In this document: positions 1,875 to 27,550 of the stretch, piece by piece
How positions within the stretch are numbered: position 1 is the stretch's first letter
Layout of the letters: each line of letters starts with the position of its first letter
Source of the DNA: a virus
IMG/VR virus record: IMGVR_UViG_3300026078_000056
Span: 1 to 36,606 of that record
Direction: 5' to 3' (one strand)
Length of the DNA stretch: 36,606 bases
The notes under the pieces: generated by a model
Told to the model about the DNA's origin: nothing
What the model saw: only the letters and a program-made list of their open reading frames with translations
Database searches by the model: none
Translations under genes and position numbers: made by a program

Positions 1875-1968
1875 GGCCCGATCTCCGTTTCGAGAGACCA
1901 TGACGGGTTGAGGCCTAGCCGCAACGCACTCATGATCCGCACGGACAATGGCAGGATCGGAAGACCCA

Positions 1969-1978
1969 ACAACGCACC
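1969..1978 (-). repeat. GGTGCGTTGTT boundary element, copy 1 (upstream of endolysin)
   Basis: The minus strand reads GGTGCGTTGTT (plus 1968-1978). It sits 28 bases after the stop of the 82-residue secreted protein gene and 95 bases before the endolysin ATG. Further down, a weaker match (AGTGCGTTGCGG) occurs on the minus strand near 1919-1930. Between element and start, GATCC and GGATC could pair across a 14-base loop. Confidence 0.75.
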
Positions 1979-2006
1979 GCCACTGGCGCCGAGGAGCAGC
2001 GCTGGC

Positions 2007-2255
2007 TTATTTCTTCGCCGGGGCCGGATCAGCCTTATGCTCGAGCTCCTTGACGCGGGCCTGCGCCTTGGCGAGATCCTCAGCGAGACCGGCGGCCTTG
2101 GCATCCGCGATCGCGGCTGAATCCAGTGCCTGATTGCGCTGCGACTGCATGGAAGCCAGTGCCCGCTGCAGGAAAGCCGGGTCTGGCTGTTGCTGCTGCT
2201 GGGCCACAGCAGGAGTTGCGAGAAGCAATAACGCGAGAGCAAGTCGTTTCATCAT
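2007..2255 (-). CDS. Secreted coiled-coil protein with Sec signal peptide
   Basis: This encodes 82 residues. The N-terminus MMKRLALALLLLATPAVAQ is a clear Sec signal peptide with an AVA-Q type cleavage site. A poly-Gln stretch follows, then an Ala/Lys/Glu-rich coiled coil to the Lys-rich end. The ATG overlaps the stop of the fibre gene (ATGA, 2252-2255), so it is coupled to fibre translation. No family is recognised. A periplasmic helical protein just before the endolysin could serve lysis, or act as a partner of the fibre. Confidence 0.8.
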   Translation of the reverse strand: MMKRLALALLLLATPAVAQQQQQPDPAFLQRALASMQSQRNQALDSAAIADAKAAGLAEDLAKAQARVKELEHKADPAPAKK

Positions 2256-4564
2256 GCAGCCTTTTCGGTGAGTGGGAAGTTATCGTTCGAAGCGGTCACG
2301 CCCTTGATGACGGCGAAATTGATCACCGGCGCATCGGTCGCAGTGCCGCCAGTCGTGTAGAACGTGATCACGAAGCTACCGGCGCCCGTAGATGATACGC
2401 TTAGACTGTAAACGTTGGTTGCGCCGCTCGCGATGGATAGGTGAACCGTATCGGTTGCCGCTACAGCGGAATTGGTCACCGTGAATGTTGCGGGCGTCGC
2501 ACTGCCTGCGGCACTGAACATTGTGATCTGGCCAGTGACCTTATTGATCGTGACGCCGGTGGTCCGTGACGTACCCTGCGTGACCGTCCCGCCGGCCCCC
2601 GTCGCATATCCAATGCCGGCCGATGCCGACTGCGATTTGATCGAGGAGTTCGCCAGAATCCCGCCAGACCCGCAGTCGGTCGTTGTGCCAACCGCGAAGC
2701 ATCCGCTGTCGAAGAACCGCGCCTTTTCCGCGTTGCTGGTATAGACCTTGACCGGAATGGCCGTGAGCGCACCGAAGATATACTGAGTTGCATCGACATA
2801 ATGCACGCCAGTGGCGGTGCCGCCGACCGCCAACTGGAATTGAGAGGTTGCGGCGTTATTGATGTAGAAGGTCGTCTGTCCGGAATTTACCGAATTGCGG
2901 AACGAGAATAGCTCGGTGTAGCCGGCGCCATTGATCTGCGAACTGAATTTCAGATAGCTGTCCGGGCTGGCGGCACCTTGGACAGGCACGTTCTCAATGA
3001 TCCAGTCCGCCTGCTGGGATGCCGCCGTGGCATTCGTTTTCCAGCCCTGCGCCGTCAAACGCAGGCGCGGGCTGTACTGCTGATTGCCAGCAGTTGCCGC
3101 AGTGGCATCGGCCAAAGCAATGCCGTCGGTGCTGGTATTTGCCGCCTGAGACGGAGTGTGGGTATGGACTCCGGTCCAGATCGGCACGATCGCCTGCGAC
3201 AGTGCTGGAGCCGCATCCGAGCGCATCGCGGTCACGGCGCTGCCGTTAACCGCGGAGAGGCCGATGCTGGCCGTTGGATTGGCGAAACTCGCTGTAGTCA
3301 AACATGTTGAACATGACAAAGCACCAGTAGTTGCATTTAATGAAAGTGGTAATGTGGCGCTAACCGCAAAGGTGCCGGCTCCAGTTGGTAAAAACAATGT
3401 TGGCGTGCCAGCAACAGCTTGCGCTGTGATAGTCGCCATTCCGCTGGTGGACCCCTTAAACTGCGCCACGCCGGGGGCCGTGCCGGTCTTCCCTATTACA
3501 ACAGTGTTTTCAAACAGCCCGTTCCCGGCTCCATCTAAATACGAATGCGGCCCCCGGATTAAGTAACTGGTTATTGTGTAGCTGCCAAAGTCAATGGCGC
3601 TGTCGATCGTTGCCGATCCGGACGAACAAATCGCGCAACCCGTCGCGGAAATTGGCGCGATACCGTTGGCGTCGGCAAATAAGATGCCGTTGTTAAAGGG
3701 AAGTCCGGCTGCGCCAAATACCAGGCCGGCGTCCAGCACTGCGCCGGCCACCTGGCCGCCGCTCACGATGTTCCAGCAAAAGCGATAGCTGGCGCTTGCG
3801 CCCGTGGTGATCGAGCAGTCGACCTCGCCGCCGGAGACCTCGAACAAGTTGGTCGCGCCGGAGCGCGCGATGACCTGAAACGACGTTGCGAACATCGTGC
3901 CTTTCGAGTTGCCGATGCCCGTTCCGGTACCTCCGTCGCCAGCCTGGACGAGGCCGGTGGCGCCCAAAGCCACGTGATCCCGCGGCGTCGCTGGGTTAGA
4001 TGCCGATGCCTTGTACAGATAGAAAAGACCGGCCTGTTTTGCGCCCGTGGAATTCGCGCCGCCCGTGACCAACCCGACGTCTAATCCGTAGGTGAAAACC
4101 GGAGGCGCGCCGGTGACGTTCGCGCCCTCGCCGTCGACGCAGATGTAGTTGTACACCAGCGACGGCGATGCTCCCCAGCAGTTGCTGGACGAGTCGCCCG
4201 TCGTGGTGCCGCTGGCCGGTCCGGTCTGGTTGACCACAAGCCCGCGCGTGCTGCTCGATGCAGTAGGCGATATGGTTAGCGGGCCGCCATTGAGAGTGGC
4301 CTTCGATCCTGTTCCGCCAGCCGTCGAACAAACCCACAGACCTGTTATCGCGTTGTAGATCGGGAAGGCGCCAGACGTGGCGCACATGCTGTTTAATAGG
4401 CTGGAATTCAGCGTGGCGAACGGGATGGCCTGCGAGGGGCCCGAGCCAGAACCGGTGCCGATACGGCCAATCACGGTGTGGTCGGGCACCGTGGGGAACT
4501 GCTGGGCGACGGCCGGGGAAAGCCATGCCAGGGCGGCGAGGAGAAGGCCAATGATGTGTTTCAT
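2252..4564 (-). CDS. Long tail fibre-like protein with N-terminal signal peptide
   Basis: The start is ATG 4564; the frame is open to 4600, but only via a TTG. The 770-residue protein begins with a typical signal peptide (MKHIIGLLLAALAWL, cleavage near AVAQQ). A long Gly/Ser/Thr/Ala-rich beta-type sequence follows, as in trimeric fibres and tailspikes. One segment (AVNGSAVTAMRSDAAPAL) is typical of phage fibre proteins of rhizobial prophages. The C-terminal 110 residues form a distinct beta domain (TGVTINKVTGQITM...). Its place after the internal virion proteins fits the T7 order for the fibre. The signal peptide is odd for a virion protein that must assemble in the cytosol. Confidence 0.75.
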   Translation of the reverse strand: MKHIIGLLLAALAWLSPAVAQQFPTVPDHTVIGRIGTGSGSGPSQAIPFATLNSSLLNSMCATSGAFPIYNAITGLWVCSTAGGTGSKATLNGGPLTISPTASSSTRGLVVNQTGPASGTTTGDSSSNCWGASPSLVYNYICVDGEGANVTGAPPVFTYGLDVGLVTGGANSTGAKQAGLFYLYKASASNPATPRDHVALGATGLVQAGDGGTGTGIGNSKGTMFATSFQVIARSGATNLFEVSGGEVDCSITTGASASYRFCWNIVSGGQVAGAVLDAGLVFGAAGLPFNNGILFADANGIAPISATGCAICSSGSATIDSAIDFGSYTITSYLIRGPHSYLDGAGNGLFENTVVIGKTGTAPGVAQFKGSTSGMATITAQAVAGTPTLFLPTGAGTFAVSATLPLSLNATTGALSCSTCLTTASFANPTASIGLSAVNGSAVTAMRSDAAPALSQAIVPIWTGVHTHTPSQAANTSTDGIALADATAATAGNQQYSPRLRLTAQGWKTNATAASQQADWIIENVPVQGAASPDSYLKFSSQINGAGYTELFSFRNSVNSGQTTFYINNAATSQFQLAVGGTATGVHYVDATQYIFGALTAIPVKVYTSNAEKARFFDSGCFAVGTTTDCGSGGILANSSIKSQSASAGIGYATGAGGTVTQGTSRTTGVTINKVTGQITMFSAAGSATPATFTVTNSAVAATDTVHLSIASGATNVYSLSVSSTGAGSFVITFYTTGGTATDAPVINFAVIKGVTASNDNFPLTEKAA

Positions 4565-4596
4565 GGCTCCGGAAGATGGCGGAAGCCATGCGGTAA

Positions 4597-4606
4597 ACAA
4601 CGCACC
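4597..4606 (-). repeat. GGTGCGTTGTT boundary element, copy 2 (upstream of fibre)
   Basis: The minus strand reads TAGGGTGCGTTGTTT, where TAG is the stop of the large virion gene. The element ends 33 bases before the fibre ATG at 4564. Between element and start lies a short inverted repeat, ATGGC-TTCC-GCCAT. Confidence 0.8.
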
Positions 4607-7600
4607 CTACGGCTGCTGAGGAGCCGCCTGCCGGGCGTTTTCGAACCGGGCCCGCTGCTCTGGGGTTGCGGTCCGATAGAAGTCCCTCAGCGCCTTGGCA
4701 CCAATCCGGGTGGCCGGGTTAAGCGTCGTCTTGATGACCCATTTCTGATAGCCGGCGTCCATACCAAGGCTGGTCATGGCCTGCTGCGCGCCCGGGATGT
4801 CTCCGCGCTGGATCTGCTTGCGGATGTCCGGCATGGCCTGCTGCACTTGGAATTCGAAGCGAGACTTGTTGGCGTACATTTCGCCGACCGCCGGGCCGCC
4901 GGGCGCTCCCTTGGAGAACGTCACGCCACCGAATGGCCCGATCGCCTGCAGGGCATTCACCTTGGCGTCGCCCTCGCCCTTTATGAGGTCCGAAAACGCC
5001 CCGATCTGGCCCTCCGGCAGTTGAGAGCCCACGATATGCTTAGCGATCTTGCCGAGATTCGATAGGTATTTTGCCGGCGTGTCGGCGTCCGGGTCGTAAA
5101 TCTTGCGACCGAAGCCGGCATCGTTACTCATGATCTGCCAGGCCGGGCGCGCGATGGTCCCGAGTTTGCGGCGCATCATGTCCAACGGGCCGGTCATGTA
5201 CCCCGTGAATTCCTCACCGATCTTGCCGGCGGGGTTGCGCATGTAGATGGCAGTGCCATTGGCCGCGGTGCCGACGCGAACCCGGTCGCCCTTCCCGGGC
5301 TCATTTTCCGAGGTCGAGGATAGATCGCCGAGCAGCTTGAGCGGCTGGATCAATTCAAGCGGATGCTCACGCACGGCCTCTAGCTTGGCCTGAAGCCTAG
5401 TCGCGTAGCCATGCAATTCCTTTTCCAGCGTCGAGTCGCCGATCATGACGTTCATCACGTTTTGCAACAGCGAGTTTCCGATATACATCAGCGCCATGTC
5501 GGCTGCGACCACGGTCATCGCCTTGCGGCGCGCCATCGACTTCGCATAGGCAACCGCATCGGTGGCCGGATTTGATAGTTCTCCTGCCTCATTGATTGCG
5601 CCAGCCCTAAAGCCGGCGTCCCGCTCGATTTGCGCCAGCACGTCCTTGGGCAGGCCGGTCAGCATATCCTTGATGACGCCGAGGTTACCCATGGTGAACG
5701 AGCGGGAGAACATCAGCATGTTCGCCACCTTCGTCGCCGCGTCGCTCATCGCCTCCTTCGGCAGCGCTCCGGCGTACCGGTTGGCCCAATGCGCCGCCAT
5801 GCGGGAGGCCGTTTGCTGATCGATGCCCTTGGCTATCGCATCGGCGCGGAAGTTGACGTAGAGGCCCATCTGCAGATCAGCGACGCGGTCCCATAGAAGC
5901 GTGTTGTGCCAGAAATTTCCGGCCTTATCGATCGCGGTCTTCACGGCGTTGCCCGCGGCTTCATCGAACAGTCCCGGGACCGCGCCGAGCATTTTCGCGG
6001 TCAAGGATCGCCCCGGCGCGAGGTCCGGCGATTCCATGACGCTGGTAATGTCCTGGTTGAAAAACCGATGCCCGATCGGGACCAGTCCGCTATCGATAGC
6101 CTCGTGCATCAGAGGGACATTGTTCTTGGCCCGGTTCCCCTCGAAATAGACCTTGAACGTCGCGACCTTGCCAGGCATCGCCGGGAGTGCGCGGCCCCAT
6201 TCGACCGCATTGTGGATCATGGGAGAGTTCATGATCAGGCTCATGGTTTTACCCTTGAGCGCCATCATGGCCCCATAGGCGGCCCCGGATTTCTGGCTTA
6301 GCACCGCGCGCAGCGGTCCTTCGAAATCGCCATGAACGTAGAGTGGAACCTGCTCAAAGATCGCCTTGCCGTTGGCATCCTTGAGAGCCAGGGTCTTGCC
6401 ATCGACTTCGCCGAATTTCGGCCGCCACGTCTTGAAGGCGGGATGATCGAGTGTGAACCATTTGGTTTCGGAGCCTGCGGGAATAGCTCCCTCGGAGATC
6501 GTGTCGGTCCCGGTCTGCTCTCCATATTTCTTGATGTTGTTGATCAGCGTCCGCCCCGCGATAGCGTCCTCGAGCTGAGACGTTGCCAGCGGCAGCACGC
6601 GGATGTCGCGGGCCAGCATCGCCTGGTCGCCATATTTGGCCTTGGCCGCCGCTTCGGTGTCCTGCGCTTCCAGATATTTCCGCTTCAGCAGGTTAGCGGT
6701 CTTGGTGCGGAGGTTGCCGCCGATGCCGTCCAGCGCCAGCGCGGTTTCCTTAGACCCGGCACCCATCGCATTGATGATCATGCGCGGCGTGTAGGCTGGT
6801 AATCCCTCGCCCTCGACCATGCCTAGGTCACGCGCACGGACCCAGGCGTTCTGGGCCCTGGCATGCATTTGCTCGACAACCGCCCGTTCCTCCGGGGTCA
6901 GTGTCGCAAGGCCCTGATGCTCCCGCATCGAGGCCGGCTCACCCAATTGGATCGACGTGCTTTCCTCATCCGCTGCCGTCCACATCCGGGCGCGGCTTTC
7001 CGGGTCGAACCGCTTCGCGATCTCGGTATCGATCCGCGACCAATCCCACCGGTTTCGGCGCATGGAATTGGCAAAGTCCTTGGCTATCGCCATACTGTCG
7101 ACGGTCCCTGTCGCCATGGGAGCGGTCAGCATTTGAACGTCTCGGCCGATGTCGAGCAGATTGTCGCCGGCCGATTTGAACGCTGCCGCTAGACGTCCTG
7201 GCGGGCTGGCCGGCTGCACCGATAGCGGCACGTCGGCAGGGTCAGTTGCGGCAGCCCCAAGGCTCCCAGGCTTCCCACCCGTCTCCGTCAGCACCTCCTC
7301 ATCGGCCGGGTCGAGTTTGACCACGTCTTGCTTGGCGGTTATCTCATTTTTCAGGAACGCATCGGCCTGTGCATCGTGAACAGCCTCGGCCGGGTGGATG
7401 CCCCGCTCCTGCCACATATGTTTCAGGTTGGCTTCGGCATGAGGAGAATCCAGCACCTTCGCCCCATTGGAGAAATCCTCCGGACGTGGCAATCCCCCGA
7501 CGGGCTGATCGACAACGCCACCTTCTCGCGTGGCTGCCGGCCGTGAGAATCGACCAAAGCCACCCTCGATCATCGCCCAATTACCGGCGTTGATGACCTC

Positions 7601-8050
7601 GTTCTTGGCACGATTTCCTTCGCCTTGCGACCCGCCGAATTCCTCAACGATTTGACCGATAGCGCCTCCGGCACCGTGAATACCGGAATTGATCCCGCTA
7701 GTGATCGCCTGCCATGCTTGCGCAGCGGGCATCATCAATGTCTCGTTCATGAACTGGATCGGGCTAGGCCTGCCCTTGGCCGGATCGTGAAAAATTCCAT
7801 AATCTATCAGGTGGCTCAGGGTCTCGTCCGAGAAACCAGTTTCCGTCACGCCACCCGCGTCATCCCCGGCCTCCTTGCTGGCCGCATTGAAGACCCGGCT
7901 AAGCGCCTGGCCCGCGCGCACGCGATCAAGAAACGGCTGCGGAATGGGCTCAGGCCCAGCGTTTGCCGACGCTGCGAACACCTCAGCATCGCTCATTTCC
8001 TTCTGATCTTTCGGTTTTCCGAATACCTCGTCGTCGGTCAGTTCCGTCAT
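4607..8050 (-). CDS. Very large internal virion (DNA-ejection) protein, T7 gp16-position
   Basis: The ATG at 8050 overlaps the previous stop (ATGA, 8047-8050), which decides the start. The product is 1147 residues long. It opens with an acidic repeat-like segment (TDDEVFGKP, then MSDAEVFAA) and continues as a long, mostly helical Ala-rich protein. There are hydrophobic stretches around residues 590-620 and 840-870. I see no convincing transglycosylase motif. Size, position after two other internal-protein candidates, and position before the fibre match the large ejection proteins of podoviruses, which form the channel across the cell envelope. The assignment rests on gene order and size. Confidence 0.7.
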   Translation of the reverse strand: MTELTDDEVFGKPKDQKEMSDAEVFAASANAGPEPIPQPFLDRVRAGQALSRVFNAASKEAGDDAGGVTETGFSDETLSHLIDYGIFHDPAKGRPSPIQFMNETLMMPAAQAWQAITSGINSGIHGAGGAIGQIVEEFGGSQGEGNRAKNEVINAGNWAMIEGGFGRFSRPAATREGGVVDQPVGGLPRPEDFSNGAKVLDSPHAEANLKHMWQERGIHPAEAVHDAQADAFLKNEITAKQDVVKLDPADEEVLTETGGKPGSLGAAATDPADVPLSVQPASPPGRLAAAFKSAGDNLLDIGRDVQMLTAPMATGTVDSMAIAKDFANSMRRNRWDWSRIDTEIAKRFDPESRARMWTAADEESTSIQLGEPASMREHQGLATLTPEERAVVEQMHARAQNAWVRARDLGMVEGEGLPAYTPRMIINAMGAGSKETALALDGIGGNLRTKTANLLKRKYLEAQDTEAAAKAKYGDQAMLARDIRVLPLATSQLEDAIAGRTLINNIKKYGEQTGTDTISEGAIPAGSETKWFTLDHPAFKTWRPKFGEVDGKTLALKDANGKAIFEQVPLYVHGDFEGPLRAVLSQKSGAAYGAMMALKGKTMSLIMNSPMIHNAVEWGRALPAMPGKVATFKVYFEGNRAKNNVPLMHEAIDSGLVPIGHRFFNQDITSVMESPDLAPGRSLTAKMLGAVPGLFDEAAGNAVKTAIDKAGNFWHNTLLWDRVADLQMGLYVNFRADAIAKGIDQQTASRMAAHWANRYAGALPKEAMSDAATKVANMLMFSRSFTMGNLGVIKDMLTGLPKDVLAQIERDAGFRAGAINEAGELSNPATDAVAYAKSMARRKAMTVVAADMALMYIGNSLLQNVMNVMIGDSTLEKELHGYATRLQAKLEAVREHPLELIQPLKLLGDLSSTSENEPGKGDRVRVGTAANGTAIYMRNPAGKIGEEFTGYMTGPLDMMRRKLGTIARPAWQIMSNDAGFGRKIYDPDADTPAKYLSNLGKIAKHIVGSQLPEGQIGAFSDLIKGEGDAKVNALQAIGPFGGVTFSKGAPGGPAVGEMYANKSRFEFQVQQAMPDIRKQIQRGDIPGAQQAMTSLGMDAGYQKWVIKTTLNPATRIGAKALRDFYRTATPEQRARFENARQAAPQQP

Positions 8051-9666
8051 GGGGCGACCCAGCCAGTACCGGTCCACTTCATTTTCCCGCGCGGCGTCTC
8101 ATAAACCCCAACCGGGCGCTGATCCGGAGGGGGAATAGCTGGCATGGGGTCGTTGCGAGGTGCCGGCGCTGCCGAGATCGGAGGTGCAACTCCCGAACGC
8201 AATCTATCCTGCATCGATGATTTATAGGGCTGCAGCGATTGCGAGATCATAGACGTCGGGTCGTTCAGATTCAGAGCGTTCGACGGCAGCGTTCCGGTGC
8301 GGGATTTCTCCAGATATTTCGGAATGAAATCCTGCATGAAACTTGCATAGTTCGCCGATCCAACCGGATCATTTCCTTCTGGCAAATCCTTCCGGATCAG
8401 CCGGTCGCGCAGCGCCGCCGTCGTGCTTTTCCAGACATCGCCTCGCAACGGGGTTTTCTCAAGCTCGGTAACGATCCGCTGCATCGATTGAAACGATGCA
8501 TTGCTCAGCTTGCCCGCAGCCTGGGCCTTCATTAGATCAAGGCGCGAGGTCGGGTTTTCCGAATCGAACAGCCGGTCGGTCAGTTGCTGTTTCACTTGGG
8601 GATCGTCGACGATCTTCGCAGCCTTGTTCTGCTGGCTCTCGCCCCAACTGAACATCGTTCGCACAGTCTCGGCTGCGGTAGGCGCGTTCGGGTTCTTGCG
8701 GGCGATATCGAGCGCCTGCTTGAAGAAGTTCGGATCAACGATCGGATGCCCGGTTTGCGGATCGAACGTGATATTATCTGTCATGACCTTGGTGGCGCCG
8801 GCATGAACCTGCTGATCGGAAATCTGCCGCTGCGCCACTTCTGTCTGTTTTTCGACCAGCGTATTCGCCTTCGCCTGCGTCTGCGCGGCGCGCTGAAACA
8901 TCTTCATTTCGCCGCCGTCTATGTATTCGCCATACTTCTTCTGGATGGCATCAAGGTCGACGTTCGGGTTCTTCGTTATCATGCCGGAGATTGCCGATTT
9001 GACGATACTCTCCTTGGCCTTCAATCCGACCTCTGCCTTAACGGATGCGGCCGTGGTAGCGTCGAGGTTTGGGCTGCTATCGACCATGGCACCGACGGAA
9101 TGATCGACGGACCCCAGCGCGAAATCCAGTGATGAAGGATCGGACGCGACCGCCGACGACAACGCATTGACCGTCGTCGTAACGTTCTTCCGCACTGCGA
9201 TTCCGGCCAGCGTCGACATATCGGCCGCCGTTTTCTGGAACATATGCTCGCGGTACTGATCGACGAAATGCTCGGCCCATGCCTGGCTCTGCTCGGTCGT
9301 GAAACTGTCCTTGAATTGATCTAGAGCCGGGGTGAGCTTCTCCTCGATGAACTTCTGCTTGACCGTGACGTCGTTAGGATCGGCGTTCTTCGCCGTCTCG
9401 TTCCATTGGTCGTTGATATTTGCTATCAGTTGGGCGCCATTGGCGGCGCCAGCGCTAATATCGCGGTGGGTCATGTAATCATTGGCGACCTGCCCGACGT
9501 CGCTGATCGCGCCCTTAAGTTCCGAGCCTTCCTGCCCATAGAGATCGGCCGTCTGATTGTAGAACGTGCCGATGCGGCGTGCGGCCTGGGTTGCCGCATC
9601 CACACCCATTTCGGTCGGCTGAAGGCCGAGGCCTTGGGGCGCTTGGTACTGTTGAATGTTCGACAT
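8047..9666 (-). CDS. Internal virion protein, T7 gp15-position
   Basis: This encodes 539 residues, almost entirely helical and rich in Ala, Gln, Lys and Asp, with little hydrophobic sequence. It begins MSNIQQYQAPQGLGLQPTEM, a type of N-terminus common in podovirus internal proteins. AAGGGG lies just upstream of the ATG. It sits between the 163-residue and the 1147-residue virion proteins and is coupled to the latter. Proteins in this place form the inner core and the ejection tunnel. No enzyme motif was found. Confidence 0.7.
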   Translation of the reverse strand: MSNIQQYQAPQGLGLQPTEMGVDAATQAARRIGTFYNQTADLYGQEGSELKGAISDVGQVANDYMTHRDISAGAANGAQLIANINDQWNETAKNADPNDVTVKQKFIEEKLTPALDQFKDSFTTEQSQAWAEHFVDQYREHMFQKTAADMSTLAGIAVRKNVTTTVNALSSAVASDPSSLDFALGSVDHSVGAMVDSSPNLDATTAASVKAEVGLKAKESIVKSAISGMITKNPNVDLDAIQKKYGEYIDGGEMKMFQRAAQTQAKANTLVEKQTEVAQRQISDQQVHAGATKVMTDNITFDPQTGHPIVDPNFFKQALDIARKNPNAPTAAETVRTMFSWGESQQNKAAKIVDDPQVKQQLTDRLFDSENPTSRLDLMKAQAAGKLSNASFQSMQRIVTELEKTPLRGDVWKSTTAALRDRLIRKDLPEGNDPVGSANYASFMQDFIPKYLEKSRTGTLPSNALNLNDPTSMISQSLQPYKSSMQDRLRSGVAPPISAAPAPRNDPMPAIPPPDQRPVGVYETPRGKMKWTGTGWVAP

Positions 9667-9674
9667 CTGACCCC

Positions 9675-14500: not shown

Positions 14501-14519
14501 GGGGCCGAAAATGCGGCCC
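14501..14519 (-). promoter_or_regulatory. Hairpin directly in front of the adaptor start codon
   Basis: On the minus strand GGGCCG-CATTTT-CGGCCC forms a 6-base-pair GC stem that ends one base before ATG 14500. No purine-rich ribosome site is visible in the same 25 bases. It may expose the start codon or cap a short 5' end. There is no T-run, so it is not a terminator. Confidence 0.5.
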
Positions 14520-14532
14520 GAGGCTCAGGGGA

Positions 14533-14542
14533 ACAACGCACC
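14533..14542 (-). repeat. GGTGCGTTGTT boundary element, copy 3 (upstream of adaptor)
   Basis: The minus strand reads TAGGGTGCGTTGTTCC. It lies eight bases after the stop of the deacetylase-like gene and 33 bases before the adaptor ATG, followed by the GC hairpin. It shares 14 identical bases with copy 2. Confidence 0.8.
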
Positions 14543-16500: not shown

Positions 16501-16534
16501 TAAGAAAAAGGGCGGACGAGTAATCGCCCGCCCT
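16501..16534 (-). terminator. Rho-independent terminator between head and tail modules
   Basis: The minus strand reads AGGGCGG-G-CGA-TTAC-TCG-T-CCGCCCT followed by TTTTCTTA. This is a 7-bp GC stem, one mismatch, 3 bp and a tetraloop, then a T-run. It stands after the 83-residue gene, and its T-run touches the ribosome site of the gene at 16490. It should end or reduce transcripts from the head genes. Confidence 0.8.
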
Positions 16535-16561
16535 CGATCGGGTTAGCTTTCCGTTCGGTCC

Positions 16562-18609: not shown

Positions 18610-18714
18610 ACTCGGGGCGCCCGGGACCGACTTTCATACCAGACGGATTTCTCCGTGGTTGCCGTCGGTCCCGTATTAAGCTTGGGCGGAAGATGCCGCC
18701 TGCCAAAAATTGGA

Positions 18715-18724
18715 ACAACGCACC
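18715..18724 (-). repeat. GGTGCGTTGTT boundary element, copy 4 (start of capsid leader)
   Basis: The minus strand reads TAGTGGTGCGTTGTTCC, where TAG is the stop of the scaffold gene. The next start codon (capsid) is 290 bases away, so here the element marks the 5' side of the long leader. Confidence 0.8.
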
Positions 18725-19868: not shown

Positions 19869-20334
19869 GCTTATGCTCAACGGACGGACCGACGCGCTCG
19901 TCACGCGACACCCAGCGCTTCAAGTCGCGGAACATTGCCGTTCGATCCTCGTCGGAGAACTTCAAACGGTCGGCGATCCTGCGGAAGGTCGAAATAAACT
20001 GGTCATCTGAATCGTATACGATGACGTTCCGATAGATCGCATAATCCGAATCGATATAATCGCAGACCACATGGCCCGTGCGCTTGATGGTTGCAAAGCC
20101 GCTGTAGATCGGCGGCTTGACTTGGATGAAATCCGGAAACGCCACGCGCATCAGGACTTCCATCGCCTCAAGATAAAGATTTGCCAGCACGGCCAGCATG
20201 ACCAGGCGCTCCGTGCCTTTCGTTTCCACCAGCAACCGGCATTGCCACTCGTCGCGCAACTGCTGTGCGTGACGGGATGCCATCACTTTGGCTTCCAGCG
20301 AGTATTGCTGGGTCGATCCGTTCATCAGGCTCAT
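19852..20334 (-). CDS. Head-module protein of unknown function
   Basis: The ATG at 20334 overlaps the portal stop (ATGA), which decides the start; the longer open frame upstream is a shadow of the portal gene. The product is 160 residues, with a helical first half (MASRHAQQLRDEWQCRLLVE) and a mixed second half (YSGFATIKRTGHVVCDYID). No domain is recognised. Coupling to the portal suggests a structural or assembly role. Confidence 0.72.
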   Translation of the reverse strand: MSLMNGSTQQYSLEAKVMASRHAQQLRDEWQCRLLVETKGTERLVMLAVLANLYLEAMEVLMRVAFPDFIQVKPPIYSGFATIKRTGHVVCDYIDSDYAIYRNVIVYDSDDQFISTFRRIADRLKFSDEDRTAMFRDLKRWVSRDERVGPSVEHKHETDA

Positions 20335-22046
20335 ACGGGCCCCTGCGGCTGTTGGCCAACACCGGCCTTCTGCATCTTGGACTGCGCATTCATGATGGCC
20401 GCCTGACCCGGCATGGCGTCGATCTTGGCCTTCTGCTGCTGCGCCTGGGCGCGAGACTTGCGGATGGCCGCCTTCTTTTCGTCCGTCGCCATCCAACGCG
20501 TCGGCACAAGCTGGTCGTAGGCGATCTCGGGGGCCGCCGTGTCGATATCGAAATTGTCCAGCGGGCTCGGGTCCTGCGTGATCTGTACAACTTCCTTGAA
20601 TTGCTCCAGCGTCCGGAAAAACCCTGCGGCGCGGCCGGCACGGGCTTCCAGTGCCAGGGGTGAGGTATCGGTGACGCGGTATTCGCCGCGGGCCTCTTTC
20701 AGGCGGCGCGGCATCGGCGGCAACAGCCCCTGCTCAGCGAGCAGATCAAGTTCGCGCTCGACCATGCCGGGGATATACTCCGAATGCTGGCGGCCCAGCG
20801 TCGGCGCGGTCAGCATGGCGCGCTCATTGACGAGCTGAATAACCTGCGTCGCCTTCATGTTCGGGTTGTCGACCAGGGTGTCAATCAGCGAAATCCCGCT
20901 GGTTTCCTTGATCAGCTTGGCCTCGACCTCCATCATCTCCTTGGCGATTTCGATCTTGCCGGTGGGGAGAACGCCGACCAATGGCTTGCCGTCGGGCGAC
21001 ATGCCGCCGGGGTTCATCGCGCCGGGGCGAAGCGAGAAGTTCTGGGCGCCGTCATCGGTCGACAGCAACACGGGATCGGCGGCGCGGTGGCCCTGCTTGA
21101 GGAACACCACCTTTTGCGCGTTCAGTGTCTTGATGGCCGGAAGCGCGATCTGCACCCAACCGCGGCCATAGACCTCGCCGGGGGTCTGGTCATAGCGGGA
21201 CGGCGCATAGGGGAATTTGCGGTAGCCGCCCTCTGGCGCGACCATGCACTGGCCGGTCATCGAGATGTAATAGGATTCGAAAGGCTTGCCGCGCTCGTCG
21301 ATACGATCAGGGTCGTAGTCGTTGTCGTCGCGCGGCCGCACAACGTGCAGGAAGTCGTAGACCGCCTGGCTGTCCTTTTTGTAGGCCTCGAGCAGTTGCG
21401 GCGGGGTCCAGTCCTCGCCGAATTTCTGTACGCATTGGTAGGGCGTCAGGCGGAAATAGCGGTGGATGCGATCGACCATGCCCTGATGGTTCTCGCCGAA
21501 GAAGGTCTCGCCCAATGGCACCGACTTGTAGCGCAGGCCGCGGGCTCCGGGCTGCATCCGCGAATCAAGCTTGTCCACGAACATCGTGAAGTTGCCGAAC
21601 GCGCCGAGCGATTGCCAATTGTTGTAATTCTGCCCGACAAAATTGGCGTTCTGCGCATAGCGGTAGCGGAACAGGAGTTTGGTGACCTGCTCGAACCACA
21701 ACCGCGTATCGCGGTCCTTCATGATGTAATCGGCATTCGGACCGTCGGCTTCCAGCCCATGGTAGAGCATATTGCGCGGGGTGATCAGCGAATCCGTGAT
21801 GGCACAAAAACGATGCAGGGCGAGGCCGGCGGTCATATCCACCTGGCGGTCGGTTTTCTTCTGGCCCTGCCAGTTGAAGGATCCAGGGAAGAACGTGTTG
21901 CGCGAGGTTGGCAGCACAATCTGCGCGGCCTCCTCCCATTGCCCCGCGAACAGGGCGCGCTGCACCTGCAACTCGCCAAACTCACGGATTGCGCGACCTA
22001 CGATTTCGCTCTCGCGCGGGGTGACCTGCCGGTAGGCGTCAGCCAT
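20331..22046 (-). CDS. Portal (head-tail connector) protein, T7 gp8-like
   Basis: This encodes 571 residues. It contains the usual podovirus portal features: an N-terminal helical region with QWEEAAQIVLPTSRNTFFPG, then DSLITPRNMLYHGL, a LGAFGNFTMFVDK segment, a GYRKFPYAPSRYDQTPGEVY strand region near residue 280, and YGRGWVQIALPAIKTLN as the start of the long stem helix. The C-terminus is Gln/Ala-rich. The portal forms the twelve-fold ring at the packaging vertex. It overlaps the small genes on both sides. Confidence 0.92.
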   Translation of the reverse strand: MADAYRQVTPRESEIVGRAIREFGELQVQRALFAGQWEEAAQIVLPTSRNTFFPGSFNWQGQKKTDRQVDMTAGLALHRFCAITDSLITPRNMLYHGLEADGPNADYIMKDRDTRLWFEQVTKLLFRYRYAQNANFVGQNYNNWQSLGAFGNFTMFVDKLDSRMQPGARGLRYKSVPLGETFFGENHQGMVDRIHRYFRLTPYQCVQKFGEDWTPPQLLEAYKKDSQAVYDFLHVVRPRDDNDYDPDRIDERGKPFESYYISMTGQCMVAPEGGYRKFPYAPSRYDQTPGEVYGRGWVQIALPAIKTLNAQKVVFLKQGHRAADPVLLSTDDGAQNFSLRPGAMNPGGMSPDGKPLVGVLPTGKIEIAKEMMEVEAKLIKETSGISLIDTLVDNPNMKATQVIQLVNERAMLTAPTLGRQHSEYIPGMVERELDLLAEQGLLPPMPRRLKEARGEYRVTDTSPLALEARAGRAAGFFRTLEQFKEVVQITQDPSPLDNFDIDTAAPEIAYDQLVPTRWMATDEKKAAIRKSRAQAQQQKAKIDAMPGQAAIMNAQSKMQKAGVGQQPQGPV

Positions 22047-22215
22047 AAGTTCCCATTCCGAGGGTCTGCGCCGCCGGGCCTATCGCGGCACTTTGCTGTT
22101 GGGCGAGAAGCCGCTTCTTGCGAGCTTCCTCGCTTTCGTCCTGCATCTGCTGGGGAAGGTTGAGCCCGAGATCGGACGCCGCCATTCCCATGGTGAACGG
22201 GCTAGTCGTCGTCAT
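22039..22215 (-). CDS. Small Gln/Met-rich head protein
   Basis: The start is ATG 22215, which overlaps the 125-residue gene by 14 bases and the portal start by 8. The 58 residues are a polar helical protein (QMQDESEEARKKRLLAQQQ) with a Gly-rich end. Genes of this size commonly stand right before podovirus portals. No motif or strong ribosome site was seen. Confidence 0.6.
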   Translation of the reverse strand: MTTTSPFTMGMAASDLGLNLPQQMQDESEEARKKRLLAQQQSAAIGPAAQTLGMGTYG

Positions 22216-22579
22216 CGTCGGCCGCCGCTGCTTCGGCGCGCCGGCGGGCATCGCACTTCGCCAGCTTGGCGCGCATTTCCTTCAGATTGTCCTCGAACCC
22301 GGGCTCCGGACCGCCCTTGCGACGCTCGGTTTGGTTCTTGATGTAGGCCTCGATCGACTGCGCGGTCATGTTGCCATCGGCACCAAGCCCCTGCTCGATC
22401 GGGTTGCCTTCCTTCGTGGTCTTGTGGTCGTGGCCGAACACGTCCTGCAACGCGATCTTCCTGGCTTCGCGCTTGATCTCGCGGCGGGTTTCCTTCGGAA
22501 GAAGGCTCATGGCCTCGGCCTTGCGCGCGGTCAGTTGGCTCTCGATGAATTTCTGGGAACGGATCGAAACGGCGTCCAT
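22202..22579 (-). CDS. Charged helical protein with acidic tail
   Basis: This encodes 125 residues. It is lysine/arginine-rich and helical in the first half (LPKETRREIKREARKI) and ends in five aspartates after an Ala-rich run. The sequence around GHDHKTTKEGNPIEQGLG looks like a linker. It begins one base below the stop of the preceding gene. No family was recognised. A head assembly role is suggested only by its place between terminase and portal. Confidence 0.65.
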   Translation of the reverse strand: MDAVSIRSQKFIESQLTARKAEAMSLLPKETRREIKREARKIALQDVFGHDHKTTKEGNPIEQGLGADGNMTAQSIEAYIKNQTERRKGGPEPGFEDNLKEMRAKLAKCDARRRAEAAAADDDDD

Positions 22580-22580
22580 G

Positions 22581-22883
22581 TCAGAGCGCCCCCTCAGTCT
22601 CGGCAGCGCGTGCGATGGCGGTTTCCAGTTTGGCGTGGACCGCTTCTTCCGCGGCGCTTGCGGCCTGGTGTTCCTTCTCGGCAGCGATCAGGGCTTCCAG
22701 TGCGGCATGGTGCGCCTTCTGCGGGTCGCTCATGCGCGAAAACGGCGAACCAACGCCCTTCTCCGGTGTATCCTTGTGGCGCAAATGATTTTCGCCAAGC
22801 GTCGCATCCTCAAACGCGCGTAGCCGCGCTTCGGTGGATTCGGGTTCTTTGATTTCCGTGAAGGATTCGGGTTCGTCGGCCAT
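22581..22883 (-). CDS. Small acidic helical protein
   Basis: The ATG at 22883 has GGAG about nine bases upstream; the longer open frame is not needed. The 100 residues are Glu/Ala-rich, with an N-terminal disordered part (ADEPESFTEIKEPES) and a helical C-terminal half (AHHAALEALIAAEKEHQAA). It is the first gene after the glycosyltransferase and the hairpin at 22903-22933. No family was recognised. Confidence 0.65.
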   Translation of the reverse strand: MADEPESFTEIKEPESTEARLRAFEDATLGENHLRHKDTPEKGVGSPFSRMSDPQKAHHAALEALIAAEKEHQAASAAEEAVHAKLETAIARAAETEGAL

Positions 22884-22898
22884 GATTTTCTCCAAAAG

Positions 22899-22933
22899 GG
22901 ACGGCGGGAGGCCACTCCCGGGGTTCTCCCGCC
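22899..22933 (-). terminator. Strong hairpin after the glycosyltransferase gene, possible terminator
   Basis: On the minus strand GGCGGGAG and CTCCCGCC form a perfect 8-bp GC stem (22933-22926 with 22910-22903) around a 15-base loop. GTCCCTTTTGG follows. The T-run is short and broken, so it may only attenuate transcription or protect RNA ends. It sits between the glycosyltransferase stop and the next ribosome site. Confidence 0.45.
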
Positions 22934-22971
22934 GCAAGTCGAGGGAGGATTTGGCTTAAGGATCGGGAACG

Positions 22972-24216
22972 TCAGGCCTTTGAAGGCTGTAAACAACGCA
23001 CCCACGCGCTTGCCGCGGCGACGGCCGGGCTCCAGGCGCCGAATTCAGGCTGCCGGAAGATGCGGGCGCTATCATACCAGGGCGTCGTGTCGCCGCTTTC
23101 GCCCCAGCGCCAGTCTCCAGCGTAAGGTAGAAGCACCGCTGTAGGGATGCCCAGCGCGCCGGCCAGGTGCGCGGTCGCGGTATCGACCGAGATCACGGCG
23201 TCGAGCCGGGTCATTAGTGCGGCGGTATCGGCGAAGTCGCTGCATAGCGCGCCGCCGTCGAACACGAATGGCCGCTCGTCGTCGCGCAAGTCCTTTTGCA
23301 GGCTGACGAAGGTTGCGCCCGGAATATCGGGCAGGAAGTCCTTCAGGCTTGCCGATCGGTTGTGGTCGTTGGGAAACTCAGGACGGCCGCGCCAGGAAAG
23401 GCCAATGCGCGATCCTGCTGGCAGCGCTGCTCGCATTCGCTCGATCCGCAACGGATCTGCTCGCAGGTATTGATCGCCCCGGGTTTCAAGACCGGCGGTT
23501 TGCCAGAGGTCCATAACCAGCACGAAGGCGTCGGACTGATAAATTCGCGCAGCCATGCTGATATCGTTCCCATCAGAAAACTCCACATTAGGGAAATTGT
23601 CGGCGAACAACGGTAGCAGCGGGTCCTTAGTGACCCAGTGAACTGAGCGCGCAACGGCTGCGATCGCAGGCACGAACCTCGCCATCATTATCGAGTCGCC
23701 GAAACCCTGCTCGTGGACGATCAGCACGCGCTTGTCGCGCAAATCCTCCAGCCGATGCGGTTTGGCGCCGTAATGCTGGGCCATCGGCCGGCTGCGGTAT
23801 AGCTCCAGCCCGCGTTCGAAATGCCCTCGCATCAGGTGGATGTAGGATGCATTCAGCCGCGATTCCGGACTGTCGTCGCTGGTGAAATCGGCCAATGCCT
23901 CGTCGTAGCGCCTGACAGAGCCGAGCAGGACGCCGCGATTGACCCGGATCATGGCCTTCAGTTCTGCCGATCCGGACCGAAACGCGACATCGTAATCGGC
24001 CAGCGCCAGGTCCGGCCGGGAAAGCTGGTGCCAGCACATGCCACGGTTGGCGAGCGCTGCGAAAAGGGCGCGTTCACATTCCAGCGCGCAGTTATAGCTG
24101 GTGATGGCGTCACGCCATTGCCGCTTCTTCTGGTGTGCCCAACCCTCGTTGAAATACCGTGCCGCCTGCCGTCTGCGACGGGTAGAGGTGTCGGTTTGCA
24201 GGGTGACGGTCTTCAT
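22972..24216 (-). CDS. TPR-containing glycosyltransferase (GT9/heptosyltransferase-like)
   Basis: The ATG at 24216 overlaps the previous stop (ATGA), so I use it rather than upstream ATGs. The product is 414 residues. Residues of about 16-145 are helical TPR-type repeats (ANRGMCWHQLSRPDLALADY, RVNRGVLLGSVRRYDEALAD). Residues of about 160-405 resemble a GT-B glycosyltransferase: HEQGFGDSIMMARFVP (168-183) matches the glycine-rich motif of heptosyltransferase-like enzymes, and VDTATAHLAGALGIPT (345-359) followed by DWRWG is the usual C-terminal donor-site region. It probably glycosylates a phage or host surface component. It sits in the packaging operon between terL and portal. Confidence 0.8.
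   Translation of the reverse strand: MKTVTLQTDTSTRRRRQAARYFNEGWAHQKKRQWRDAITSYNCALECERALFAALANRGMCWHQLSRPDLALADYDVAFRSGSAELKAMIRVNRGVLLGSVRRYDEALADFTSDDSPESRLNASYIHLMRGHFERGLELYRSRPMAQHYGAKPHRLEDLRDKRVLIVHEQGFGDSIMMARFVPAIAAVARSVHWVTKDPLLPLFADNFPNVEFSDGNDISMAARIYQSDAFVLVMDLWQTAGLETRGDQYLRADPLRIERMRAALPAGSRIGLSWRGRPEFPNDHNRSASLKDFLPDIPGATFVSLQKDLRDDERPFVFDGGALCSDFADTAALMTRLDAVISVDTATAHLAGALGIPTAVLLPYAGDWRWGESGDTTPWYDSARIFRQPEFGAWSPAVAAASAWVRCLQPSKA
22993..23002 (-). repeat. GGTGCGTTGTT boundary element, copy 5 (inside the 3' end of the glycosyltransferase gene)
   Basis: The minus strand reads GGGTGCGTTGTTT. Here the element is coding: it forms part of the codons for Val-Arg-Cys-Leu eight residues before the stop at 22972. 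The next start codon (22883) is 110 bases away, with a strong hairpin between. Confidence 0.75.
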
Positions 24217-24470
24217 GCCGGCGGTGTCCATCGGCGCCAGTCGAGCGGGATAGTCACGCCATAGCGCTCCATGGTGGCGAGCGTGCCGAGGCACATGTTC
24301 AGCATCTGCTCGGGCGTCATGTTGGCCTGGGCGGATTGCTTGCCCTCGATCCGGATGTACCAGGAGCCATCGAGATTGCGGCCCACTGTGGTGCGCTGGT
24401 CCGGGGCGGTGATCAGGCCATCCTTGCGGAAGAAGCTGTCGTTGTTCTTGTCGGCGTTGTTCCAGTCCAT
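24213..24470 (-). CDS. Small protein between terL and the glycosyltransferase
   Basis: This encodes 85 residues. AAAGGAAG lies upstream of the ATG, 10 bases after the terL stop. The N-terminal part is polar and Asn/Asp-rich. The middle (TTVGRNLDGSWYIRIEGK) looks like a beta hairpin, and a helix (TPEQMLNMCLGTLATMERYG) follows. It is coupled to the glycosyltransferase by an ATGA overlap. No family was recognised. Confidence 0.7.
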   Translation of the reverse strand: MDWNNADKNNDSFFRKDGLITAPDQRTTVGRNLDGSWYIRIEGKQSAQANMTPEQMLNMCLGTLATMERYGVTIPLDWRRWTPPA

Positions 24471-24480
24471 GGGGCTTCCT

Positions 24481-25929
24481 TTAGAACATTTCGAAATCGA
24501 CGCCGGCGGCTTGGGGATTGGGTGGCGCGCCCGGGTTGCGCGGGGCGGGACCGATCGGTCCCTGTTTGGCGAAACGCTTGGCCATCATCGCCCTGATCAG
24601 CGCGGAGATCAGGTCATCGCGCTCTTTCACGATCTTGCCAGTGCCGTCATTCTTGCGGTGATACATGCGGCGTTCTTCAAGGAGGTCTGTCAGGGTCGTG
24701 GCGTATTTCAGCCGGCCGGACTTCTCCCGCTCGTCGATCTCGAGGATACCGGCTTCGGTCGATACTGAGCCATCGGGCCAGGTCGCGTGACCAGGCAGCA
24801 TCTTGACCCCATGGCGCTTGTAATGCTCGGCCATCGGCGCGCCGTCGTCCCTGCGGATATTGCCGTCGACCGGCCACGCCACCGGGATGGTCGCCGCCAC
24901 CCGCTTGATCGCGTCGGCATGCTGGATCGGCAGTGCATCCTTGACACGGTAGGTATGGTGGACGTGGATGACGTCAGCCTCCTTGTCCCAAAGGATCAGC
25001 ACATAGCCGAAGGGGTGATCGATGCCGAAATCGAGTGCGCCTAGCTTAAACCAGAACGGCGGGATCTCCTCCGGGCGCATCGGGTTCTCGGTGATCGATT
25101 CCTCCGGCGCGGTGAAAATCCGGCCAGAGCCCAGCATCGGCACGCCCTTGGCCCGGGCCTCGCGCTCGTGCGCTGGCCATGAGGCGATCAGCCGCTTCTT
25201 CTCGTCATCGGGAATGTGGACGGCGTCCATGATCGACATGGTGACGACGCCGCGGTACGGGCTGGGCTCGTTGAGAAACCGCAGCACGACCTCGGTCGGT
25301 CCCTGCAATGGGGTGAAGGTCATGAAGGTGATGCCGCGGGTGGCCGCGGTACGGGTTAGGCCCTCCGAATAAATGTTCATCGGCGGTTCTTCGTCGAACC
25401 AGAGCCAGTCCAGCGTCTCGCCTTGAAACTTCTGCCGCCCCTGTTCGTACGACTTGAACCGCGCCACGGACGTTCCGCCCGACACGTGCTTGACCTGGAT
25501 CGTGTCGTAGGCGTCCGTAATGCCCCGAGCGAGCGAGGGCCGTTCGGTGAACAGGTCTTTTGGGATCATGCCAGTGCCGAAGGACGTATCGACGCCGGGC
25601 TCGCCGCAAAGCTTCTTCTGCTGCACATCGCGCACCACCAGCGACGTCTCGCCGGCGATCCAGCCCCGCGTCGGTTTCTCGAACCGACGGCCCTTCCAGT
25701 CGGCAGGGTAAAGCCCCGTCAGGTGGCAGGCCGCCTCATAGGCGCCGACATGCGTCTTGCCGTTCTGGTTGCCCGCGATTAACAGCCGCTCGGACTTCGC
25801 CGAGCCCATGTCAAGGAATTCCTGTTGCTTCGGGTATGGGGCGAAGTCGAAAAACTGCTGGTAGGTCTTGCGGTAGTCGAGAGCTTCCAGGCCCTCGAGC
25901 GTCTCCTGAAGCGTGCGGAGGTCACGCAT
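24481..25929 (-). CDS. terL: Terminase large subunit
   Basis: This encodes 482 residues. The ATPase domain has Walker A AGNQNGKT (52-59) and Walker B LDWLWFDEE (173-181). The nuclease domain has LGALDFGIDHP (Asp 300, Asp 304) and ERDDLISALI (Asp 438-439), as in P22/T4-type RNase-H-fold terminases. It drives DNA translocation into the procapsid and cuts the concatemer. It overlaps terS by eight bases. The type suggests headful packaging, which would fit a circularly permuted genome. Confidence 0.95.
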   Translation of the reverse strand: MRDLRTLQETLEGLEALDYRKTYQQFFDFAPYPKQQEFLDMGSAKSERLLIAGNQNGKTHVGAYEAACHLTGLYPADWKGRRFEKPTRGWIAGETSLVVRDVQQKKLCGEPGVDTSFGTGMIPKDLFTERPSLARGITDAYDTIQVKHVSGGTSVARFKSYEQGRQKFQGETLDWLWFDEEPPMNIYSEGLTRTAATRGITFMTFTPLQGPTEVVLRFLNEPSPYRGVVTMSIMDAVHIPDDEKKRLIASWPAHEREARAKGVPMLGSGRIFTAPEESITENPMRPEEIPPFWFKLGALDFGIDHPFGYVLILWDKEADVIHVHHTYRVKDALPIQHADAIKRVAATIPVAWPVDGNIRRDDGAPMAEHYKRHGVKMLPGHATWPDGSVSTEAGILEIDEREKSGRLKYATTLTDLLEERRMYHRKNDGTGKIVKERDDLISALIRAMMAKRFAKQGPIGPAPRNPGAPPNPQAAGVDFEMF

Positions 25930-26428
25930 CGCCCTTCACCTCCGAGAATTCGGCATCGACCGGCGCAGGCGCGCCCAGAAGCTTCATCGGATCCAGCCCG
26001 TGCTTCTGCGCCAGCTGCTGGATTCGCTCCATGATCGCCTTGCCGCTGTGATCGGTGGTCGTCTTATTGACGTTGATCGTCTGCGCCGCCCCAAACCCAG
26101 ATCGGTCCAGTAGCATCCCGGCCGCCTTGATCCGGTCCTTCGGCTCCACCCCCTCATCCGTCAAAAGCGTCAGCAGCACATTCGCCGCCATCAACGACGA
26201 CGAATTCAGCCGCTTGCCGGCCTCTTCCCGCATCGCCGCAAGCACCGCCGGACTATGCGCAAGATAGTGCCCGCGGACCTTGGCCCCCTCCGACGCATCC
26301 GAATACCCGGCTCGCCGGGCCGCCTCGGCCTGCGTAATCCCCGGAAATTCGATCAGCGCCATCACGAACGACCGCTGCCGCTCGCTCAACGCCGCCATCG
26401 CCGGGCCATAATCGCTATCGTCAGCCAT
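25922..26428 (-). CDS. terS: Terminase small subunit
   Basis: This encodes 168 residues. The N-terminal helix-turn-helix (SERQRSFVMALIEFPGITQAEAARRAGYS, about 15-43) is of the Terminase_2 kind. A helical oligomerisation part follows, and the end binds terL in other phages. It recognises the packaging site. The start ATG lies 32 bases after a GGTGCGTTGTT element, and no clear Shine-Dalgarno sequence is seen. A small palindrome (ATAAC-CC-GTTAT) lies just upstream. Confidence 0.88.
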   Translation of the reverse strand: MADDSDYGPAMAALSERQRSFVMALIEFPGITQAEAARRAGYSDASEGAKVRGHYLAHSPAVLAAMREEAGKRLNSSSLMAANVLLTLLTDEGVEPKDRIKAAGMLLDRSGFGAAQTINVNKTTTDHSGKAIMERIQQLAQKHGLDPMKLLGAPAPVDAEFSEVKGDA

Positions 26429-26459
26429 CCATAACGGGTTATTCTTTCAGGCCGATCAA

Positions 26460-26469
26460 ACAACGCACC
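26460..26469 (-). repeat. GGTGCGTTGTT boundary element, copy 6 (upstream of terS)
   Basis: The minus strand reads GGGGTGCGTTGTTTG, ending 32 bases before the terS ATG. This copy has no gene directly in front of it, unlike most others, which argues that the spacing to the downstream start is what matters. Confidence 0.8.
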
Positions 26470-26660
26470 CCGTGCCGCCCAAAAAATCGGAACGGCCAAC
26501 TCATTGAGATATTTGAAGAATGGCGCGAAAAAGAGGGGGGACGTCGATTATCGACCGGCCGCTCTGTTTCTCTCCCCGCCCCCACCCACCCCCGGTCTTT
26601 TGGCCCTCGAACCCACGCATATCGCCGATTTCAGACGTTTCGCCGCTGCCTGGGTGACTG

Positions 26661-26689
26661 ACATATTGAACGACATGTAGAAATATCAA
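26661..26689 (-). promoter_or_regulatory. Possible promoter upstream of terS
   Basis: The minus strand has TTGATA, 17 bases, then ATATGT. The -35 is good and the -10 poor. It lies about 230 bases before terS in the gene-free region. No other sigma-70-like pair nearby looked better. Confidence 0.3.
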
Positions 26690-26858
26690 TGGCTTAGGCT
26701 AGAAACAGCGCTCATGGCCTATGAACGCCGTGTGCACCACGCCAGATTATGGAACATTTTCAGTTAATTGGCCAAATCGAATGACGAGGTCAATCCCGCA
26801 ACCTATGCCAATTCGACAGGAAGGCTGCTGGGCAATGATTAGAGCTCTCGTTGCCAGC

Positions 26859-26922
26859 GTGAGACAAATCCTGCACCACACATATTACGATAGATATATG
26901 CAGGGTGCGGAAATCGTCTCAC
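26859..26922 (-). repeat. Large inverted repeat (stem about 20 base pairs) after the 193-residue gene
   Basis: GTGAGAC (26859-26865) pairs with GTCTCAC (26916-26922). Inside it TCC pairs with GGA, GCACC (26873-26877) with GGTGC (26904-26908), and CATAT (26881-26885) with ATATG (26896-26900), leaving a 10-base AT-rich loop. It begins four bases after a stop codon on the minus strand. No T-run follows, so a simple terminator is unlikely. It could be an RNA-stabilising 3' end, an RNase III site, an origin hairpin or a packaging signal. Confidence 0.65.
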
Positions 26923-26926
26923 GGTC

Positions 26927-27508
26927 TCAGGGCTTGTGGTGGCGATACCAAGTGGCGCGGCTGATGCCTGCGGATATCCATGGCTTGGCAGGTGGCACCT
27001 TGCGCGGCCGGCGGGCTGCATCGCGCATCGCTCGCTTGGCCTTGGCTCTGGCTTTGCGCTGATCCTTGGTGACGTCAAAGCCGCCGATGGTCCTGATCTT
27101 GAGGCGCGAGCGGTCGATGTCGCGGAGTTGCAACTTCCAGCCCAGCTTATCCGCTGACCATTTGATCGGGCATTCCGCCACCTCGCGAATAAGCCGCTCG
27201 AGATCGCGTGGGCTGATCCATGGAGCATAGGTCGCAGTCCAACGCGTGATGCGCCGCGGGCTGTCTGGCATCGCGGCTAAATGGTGGGCGAAGATGCGAG
27301 CTATCAGTTCGCCCTGTTTGCCTGGCTCGAGCTCGACGCCTTGCCCGAATTTGTCATCAAGCCAGCGTGTGAGCTCGGCGAGGCGGATGGCGGCCATTCC
27401 GCGCGATCGATTCGCTTTGCGTACTTTCGTAGCCTTGCGCTTGTAACGCTGCGCGATCTCGTATTTGAGCGAGGCTAATTGCTCTGGGGAGGGGCGGCGA
27501 TTGACCAT
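26927..27508 (-). CDS. Conserved basic protein of rhizobial mobile elements, probable DNA-binding
   Basis: This encodes 193 residues. The N-terminal half is helical (EQLASLKYEIAQRYKRKATK), and the middle is mixed. A segment reads LQLRDIDRSRLKIRTIGGFD, and the C-terminus is strongly basic and ends in ISRATWYRHHKP, which looks like a recognition helix. Proteins with the pattern 'R-x-x-L-x-I-x-T-I-G...GISRxTWYR' are common on integrated elements of Rhizobiales. Their function is not established, so I only suggest nucleic-acid binding. The start lies 31 bases after boundary element copy 7. Confidence 0.72.
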   Translation of the reverse strand: MVNRRPSPEQLASLKYEIAQRYKRKATKVRKANRSRGMAAIRLAELTRWLDDKFGQGVELEPGKQGELIARIFAHHLAAMPDSPRRITRWTATYAPWISPRDLERLIREVAECPIKWSADKLGWKLQLRDIDRSRLKIRTIGGFDVTKDQRKARAKAKRAMRDAARRPRKVPPAKPWISAGISRATWYRHHKP

Positions 27509-27538
27509 CCCACGATCATCGCGCCCTCACCATTCAGG

Positions 27539-27548
27539 ACAACGCACC
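27539..27548 (-). repeat. GGTGCGTTGTC boundary element, copy 7
   Basis: The minus strand reads TAGGCGGTGCGTTGTCC, two bases after the TAG of the HTH regulator gene and 31 bases before the next ATG at 27508. It differs from the others only at the last base of the 11-mer. Confidence 0.72.
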
Positions 27549-27550
27549 GC

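Follow-up and report, generated by a model that had tools for sequence, protein, structure and literature searches.

The window, a single viral record (IMGVR_UViG_3300026078_000056) analysed over its whole length of 36,606 nucleotides, carries a podovirus-like block of late genes (Table 1) and also encodes a cI/LexA-like repressor. Seven copies of a short sequence lie at boundaries of the late genes, all on the leftward strand. The 11-mer GGTGCGTTGTT occurs six times without change (minus strand, starting at 1968, 4596, 14532, 18714, 22992 and 26459); the seventh copy, GGTGCGTTGTC, has one base changed and starts at 27538 on the same strand. The coordinates and strand given for the seven copies in the initial annotation are all correct, as is its statement that the rightward genes lack the element: zero copies are found there in the window.

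Table 1. Copies of the element and associated features of the window
Feature	Position	Strand	Context
Copy GGTGCGTTGTCCT	27536..27548	-	Upstream of 193-aa gene; -35 TTGTCC; predicted leaderless start at ATG 27508
terS copy	26457..26469	-	Second box TAACCC at 26436-26441; predicted start 26428, the A of the terS ATG
Portal/head copy	22990..23002	-	Overlaps last codons of 440-aa TPR gene; second box GACGTTCC at 22966-22973; heads portal/head module
Capsid copy	18712..18724	-	Upstream of major capsid gene; second box CATCTTCC at 18688-18695; predicted leader ~260 nt
Tail copy	14530..14542	-	Upstream of 435-aa tail protein gene; second box CATTTTCG at 14506-14513; predicted leaderless start at ATG 14500
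Fibre copy	4594..4606	-	Upstream of fibre gene; second box CATCTTCC at 4571-4578; predicted leaderless start at ATG 4564
Lysis copy	1966..1978	-	Upstream of lysis module (endolysin-like, 1281-1901); second box CATTGTCC at 1943-1950
Terminator-like hairpin	16508..16535	-	Downstream of capsid operon; pattern match only
HTH174, 174-aa protein	27551..28075	-	Cro/HipB-type HTH, residues ~8-80; last gene before late block
Late-block gene content			terS, terL, phrog_332 head-tail adaptor, major head protein, phrog_394 and phrog_376 tail proteins, internal virion protein

A chance expectation of about 0.02 had been given for the 11-mer in both strands. For this particular sequence 0.004-0.03 copies are expected on its own strand under Markov models of order 1-4, but the count by itself is less striking, since some 11-mer, any being allowed, is present six times in two of 150 order-5 simulations. 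Matches with at most two mismatches number 11 against 9.3 expected, which is no excess. The decisive evidence for the element is comparative and does not come from its copy number within the window.

Conservation and concerted variation

Searches with the portal, tail and terL proteins brought up one 42.3-kb record that is nearly identical, together with many relatives at ~50-80% identity. In these related loci GGTGCGTTGYT points 95 times in the direction of the late genes and twice the opposite way (some loci overlap and not all of these sites are unique), and it is this imbalance that settles the reality of the element. A deduplicated set of 141 sites gives the profile GGTGCGTTGYTGG followed by a second box, CAYSTTCC, at positions 30-37, in which A31 is present at 94 of the 141. 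The 11 bp originally reported are thus real sequence but only part of an element of ~13 bp, after which a second conserved box follows at a distance of 16-17 bp; among the seven copies of the window, the one at 27536..27548 has the weakest second box.

The junctions that carry the element (terS, after terL, capsid, tail adaptor, fibre, lysis) are common to dozens of related uncultured phages, each genome having 6-7 copies, in late genes only. Orthologous positions persist down to ~50% protein identity. The element precedes the capsid gene by ~100-290 nt and the fibre gene by ~31 nt, and the 32-33 nt spacing of the tail-gene copy recurs in most relatives. The motif search with spacing statistics that had been proposed as a check finds the junctions to be shared and the distance to the second box to be fixed. 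The element is absent from the annotated phage records MW202898, HTVC010P and RHph_N2 and from prophages at ~50% identity that a terL-profile scan brought up; a scan of bacterial genomes with the portal protein found no relative.

Copies within one genome tend toward one common variant. Types such as GGTACG..., AGTGCG..., GGTGTG... and ...TTGCG distinguish genomes, with GGTACGTTGCT in G012, AGTGCGTTG in G013, GGTGCGTTGCG in G019 and G022, GGTGTGTTG in G020 and [ACT]GTACGTTT in G003. Identity of the 13-mer is 0.878 within genomes and 0.780 between orthologous sites, a difference reached in none of 2000 permutations (the G020 and G003 sites in this test were picked with genome-specific patterns). 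The spacer shows no concerted effect in the same comparison. Because the copies of a genome vary together, the sequences imply one trans-acting reader per phage or per host. The proposal that the element is a conserved linker guiding recombination between modules fares badly here: each genome's copies share their own variant, and genome-specific variants would reduce homology between phages.

Promoter geometry and predicted starts

If numbering begins at the A of a nearby ATG (+1; modal positions 41-43), the element has its TTG at -35 and the second box its A31 at -11. This is a layout of the sigma-70 type, for which boxes 16-18 bp apart and a start 5-9 nt past the -10 are expected; TTG is at position 7, the box at 29-31 and the ATG peak at 41-43, the start being predicted. 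Left out one at a time, 84 of 140 sites have their best second-box match at positions 29-31, out of 63 possible positions. A scan of all viral contigs that allowed gaps of 10-16 returned 28 matches, nearly all in the same phage lineage: 22 have a gap of 13, four of 14 and one each of 12 and 15, with zero at 10, 11 and 16. The second box is not close to TATAAT (it is TAAYTT-like only at terS copies), and a standard sigma-70 consensus scan misses the copies. Sigma-54 (-24/-12) and ECF-type layouts were also considered and do not fit the spacing in the site profile.

Of 19 loci from relatives that lack the element, 10 carry TTGAC at a distance of 34-38 nt ahead of the terS ATG; L096 reads TTGACA-16-TATAGT-6-ATG. 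Since TTGAC is found at the same place in these more distant relatives, the terS promoter has probably been kept in position while its -35 block came to differ between lineages. A terminator directly precedes the tail-gene copy in L013, with similar sequences in L022 and L071, as would be expected if a new transcript begins there. Together these signs speak strongly for the suggestion of a phage-specific promoter or activator site: the fixed-spacing box, the -35/-11 register, the shared junctions, the replacement by TTGAC and the terminators. By all comparative signs the element is real, conserved and functional, its functional steps being read from sequence.

The same sites could conceivably serve a repressor that, bound to asymmetric repeats in a prophage, blocks elongation through the late genes. 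The stoperators of L5-type phages are likewise asymmetric, 13 bp long, situated between genes and aligned with the direction of transcription (PMC9283540), and the window does encode a cI/LexA-like repressor. Stoperators are, however, spread throughout the genome in more than 20 copies, against the 6-7 found here at heads of late operons, and a roadblock needs neither a second box at fixed spacing, nor a -35/-11 register to an ATG, nor replacement by TTGAC; such a role is very unlikely.

Promoters of this geometry would place the transcription start ~30 nt after the 11-mer. Each would combine an extended -35 block, GGTGCGTTGYTGG, spanning -41 to -29, with a degenerate -10 (CAYSTTCC, or TAAYTT-like at terS) across a spacer of 16-17 bp. 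Seven such leftward late promoters would head the terS, portal/head, capsid, tail, fibre and lysis operons and the 193-aa gene. For the terS, 435-aa tail, fibre and 193-aa genes the start would be the A of the ATG, yielding leaderless mRNAs; the other operons would have leaders, usually with Shine-Dalgarno sites, from predicted starts near 22961 (portal/head), 18683 (capsid) and 1937 (lysis). The initial annotation was right that four copies lie near start codons, but the distance is corrected to 29-31 intervening bases (30 at the terS copy), with the fibre gene probably starting at ATG 4564 (MKHIIGLLLAALAWLSPAVA...) and not at TTG 4600 of the mechanical ORF list.

Across the related phages, the reading frames that open at offset 28-32 (n=74) begin with ATG in 72 cases and with GTG and TTG in one case each. 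A Shine-Dalgarno sequence of at least 4 nt precedes 4% of near starts; for starts further from the element the figure is 74%, and for random positions 22% (the near/far split rests on simple ORF rules). These genes accordingly look leaderless, with AUG and no Shine-Dalgarno sequence at the predicted start. About half of the promoters appear to start their mRNA exactly at the start codon of the gene. In S. meliloti, too, leaderless mRNAs all begin with AUG (PMC3616915). The literature searched contained no earlier description of leaderless phage late promoters of this sort.

The near starts also lend themselves to another reading, already raised in the initial annotation, in which the element acts in translation initiation of genes without a Shine-Dalgarno sequence. 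Half of the sites do have an ATG at 29-31 nt and no Shine-Dalgarno sequence, and the start-associated sequences of Cluster K mycobacteriophages are 13-bp repeats tied to starts (PMC3203893). The position of the second box is not tied to the start codon, however: it is equally conserved and at the same distance in 68 sites without a nearby ATG as in 72 with one, and in L013 the element comes after a terminator. A start-associated cause is extremely unlikely.

Inverted repeats between element and start, which had been described as frequent, are strong at the capsid-gene copies only, where they flank the second box. In relatives these are perfect repeats of 6-9 bp with variable stems and a conserved loop (window 18688-18720; L070, L072, L075, L078), and in the window the second box of the capsid copy lies inside GGCGG...CCGCC. 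The stems of other copies are much closer to shuffled expectation, and a hairpin was rejected as a general feature. An element acting as RNA (box plus hairpin, like a nut site) in antitermination or processing would fit the capsid copies, in which the second box sits in the loop, but would leave the leaderless register unexplained; Rfam matches nothing in the window. We consider it highly unlikely.

Two local structures deserve separate mention. At terS copies (window 26425-26445; L025, L066, L079, L084, L110) the -10 region lies within an inverted repeat, TAAY...GTTA, that abuts the ATG (for example GTAATTTGTTAC); it could be an operator. Capsid-gene leaders (mostly 160-230 nt; for example in G018, G013, G012 and G029) contain a GGCCCCCGCAAGGACAAGGC-like unit repeated two or three times, possibly a structured RNA.

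Candidate readers

The seven copies very probably form a late regulon of bipartite promoters, many of which would give leaderless mRNAs, that would be served by host RNA polymerase together with a phage-encoded factor. That factor would bind the -35 block and recruit host RNA polymerase. It is judged probable because the -10 is weak, because the block is over-informative for sigma-70 and because the block changes in concert within each genome.

The same promoters might instead be used by host RNA polymerase alone, with a housekeeping or alternative sigma factor, the block reflecting host sigma preference and the variants different hosts. Sigma-70 promoters of S. meliloti have a conserved TTG and a poorly conserved -10 (PMC3616915), which the TTG at -35 and poor -10 seen here resemble; extending this likeness, with its AUG-only leaderless mRNAs, to these phages assumes an alphaproteobacterial host. 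No phage sigma factor scored over the cut-off: 17 related records gave no match to PF04542 and none over the cut-off to PF04545 or PF08281. Against the host-only reading stand GGTGCG at -41 to -36, near-invariant and outside the usual -35 hexamer of sigma-70, and the ordinary TTGAC used by more distant relatives. We regard it as rather doubtful.

If a phage-encoded factor is indeed the reader, HTH174 would be the likeliest one. Of the non-structural families, it alone is present in nearly every genome that has the motif and covers the region. Among contigs with at least 3.5 kb upstream of terL it occurs in 17 of the 19 that have the motif and in three of 86 without (Fisher 1e-14, a value confounded by the relatedness of the phages); L108, one of the latter three, does carry one copy of the element. 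Conversely, G021 has the motif and no detectable HTH174 homologue. L085 and L008 have a homologue and no recognisable copy of the element, nor was a variant of the promoter found in them. The N-terminal HTH is confidently predicted by AlphaFold, the predicted fold resembles those of HipB and C proteins (with weak E-values), and the near-invariant residues of the family (G38, K42, L44, K50) cluster around the presumed recognition helix. It counts against HTH174 that divergent subtypes accompany one identical motif, and no covariation of the recognition helix with the motif variants was seen. The HTH protein at 27551-28075, named in the initial annotation as a possible reader, thus emerges as the best candidate, on support that is circumstantial (co-occurrence). 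Our tentative proposal, possible rather than probable, is that at the 6-7 matched late promoters HTH174 assumes the task of recognising the -35 for host RNA polymerase, in the manner of sigma appropriation and with many start codons at +1, and that it co-evolves with all of the sites of its phage.

Two other genes were considered as readers and set aside, the 193-aa gene (missing from many motif-bearing genomes) and the 94-aa HTH gene at 31347-31631 (missing from several). A YdaS/Cro-like protein at 31684-31980 (PF15943, E 3e-18) adjoins the cI/LexA-like repressor at 32059-32718, and the pair is an apparent lysogeny switch.

Significance and known systems

The phages belong to a little-known environmental group, and the matched promoters most likely turn on their virion and lysis genes. 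From sequence alone, the analysis outlines how late transcription would be organised in a lineage of uncultured podophages: it offers operon heads, predicted starts, corrections to gene starts and a candidate for the regulator. The concerted change of the matched copies in each genome would be a natural record of the co-evolution of promoters and reader, to which the TTGAC-type relatives provide the contrast, and leaderless virion genes in phages would make a useful test set for leaderless translation. As a predicted late-promoter regulon, it is new in its sequence and leaderless habit; the general kind is already known.

Phages of the T7 group have many matched promoters that point in one direction along the structural genes. 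Multiple matched one-direction promoters and a similar gene order are shared with them, but the geometry here is bipartite and of the sigma-70 type. PF00940 (single-subunit RNA polymerase) gave no match in the related records, and none in the control genomes either. Mycobacteriophage stoperators and start-associated sequences are also oriented repeats, asymmetric and 13 bp long, that sit at gene boundaries (PMC9283540, PMC3203893); here, in contrast, a second box follows at fixed spacing and copies are confined to the heads of late operons. Phages phiEco32 and 7-11 use promoters of a phage sigma factor, with a short motif repeated between genes on the structural-gene strand (PMC4331800). A short conserved intergenic motif on that strand is what the present phages have as well, but it is centred on -35 where theirs is an extended -10, and 17 related records contain no sigma-70 region 2.

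The late promoters of phage Mu (lys, I, P and mom) are activated by protein C, whose site lies at -35 or immediately upstream of it, and have non-consensus -10 and -35 sequences (PMC4461284). The sequence differs here, no Mu C homologue is identified, many starts look leaderless and activator dependence is a proposal. What the two have in common is several late promoters with non-consensus boxes and a conserved site at -35, and the copies described here lie at heads of late operons in the late orientation, as do sites of the Mu C and P2 Ogr kind.
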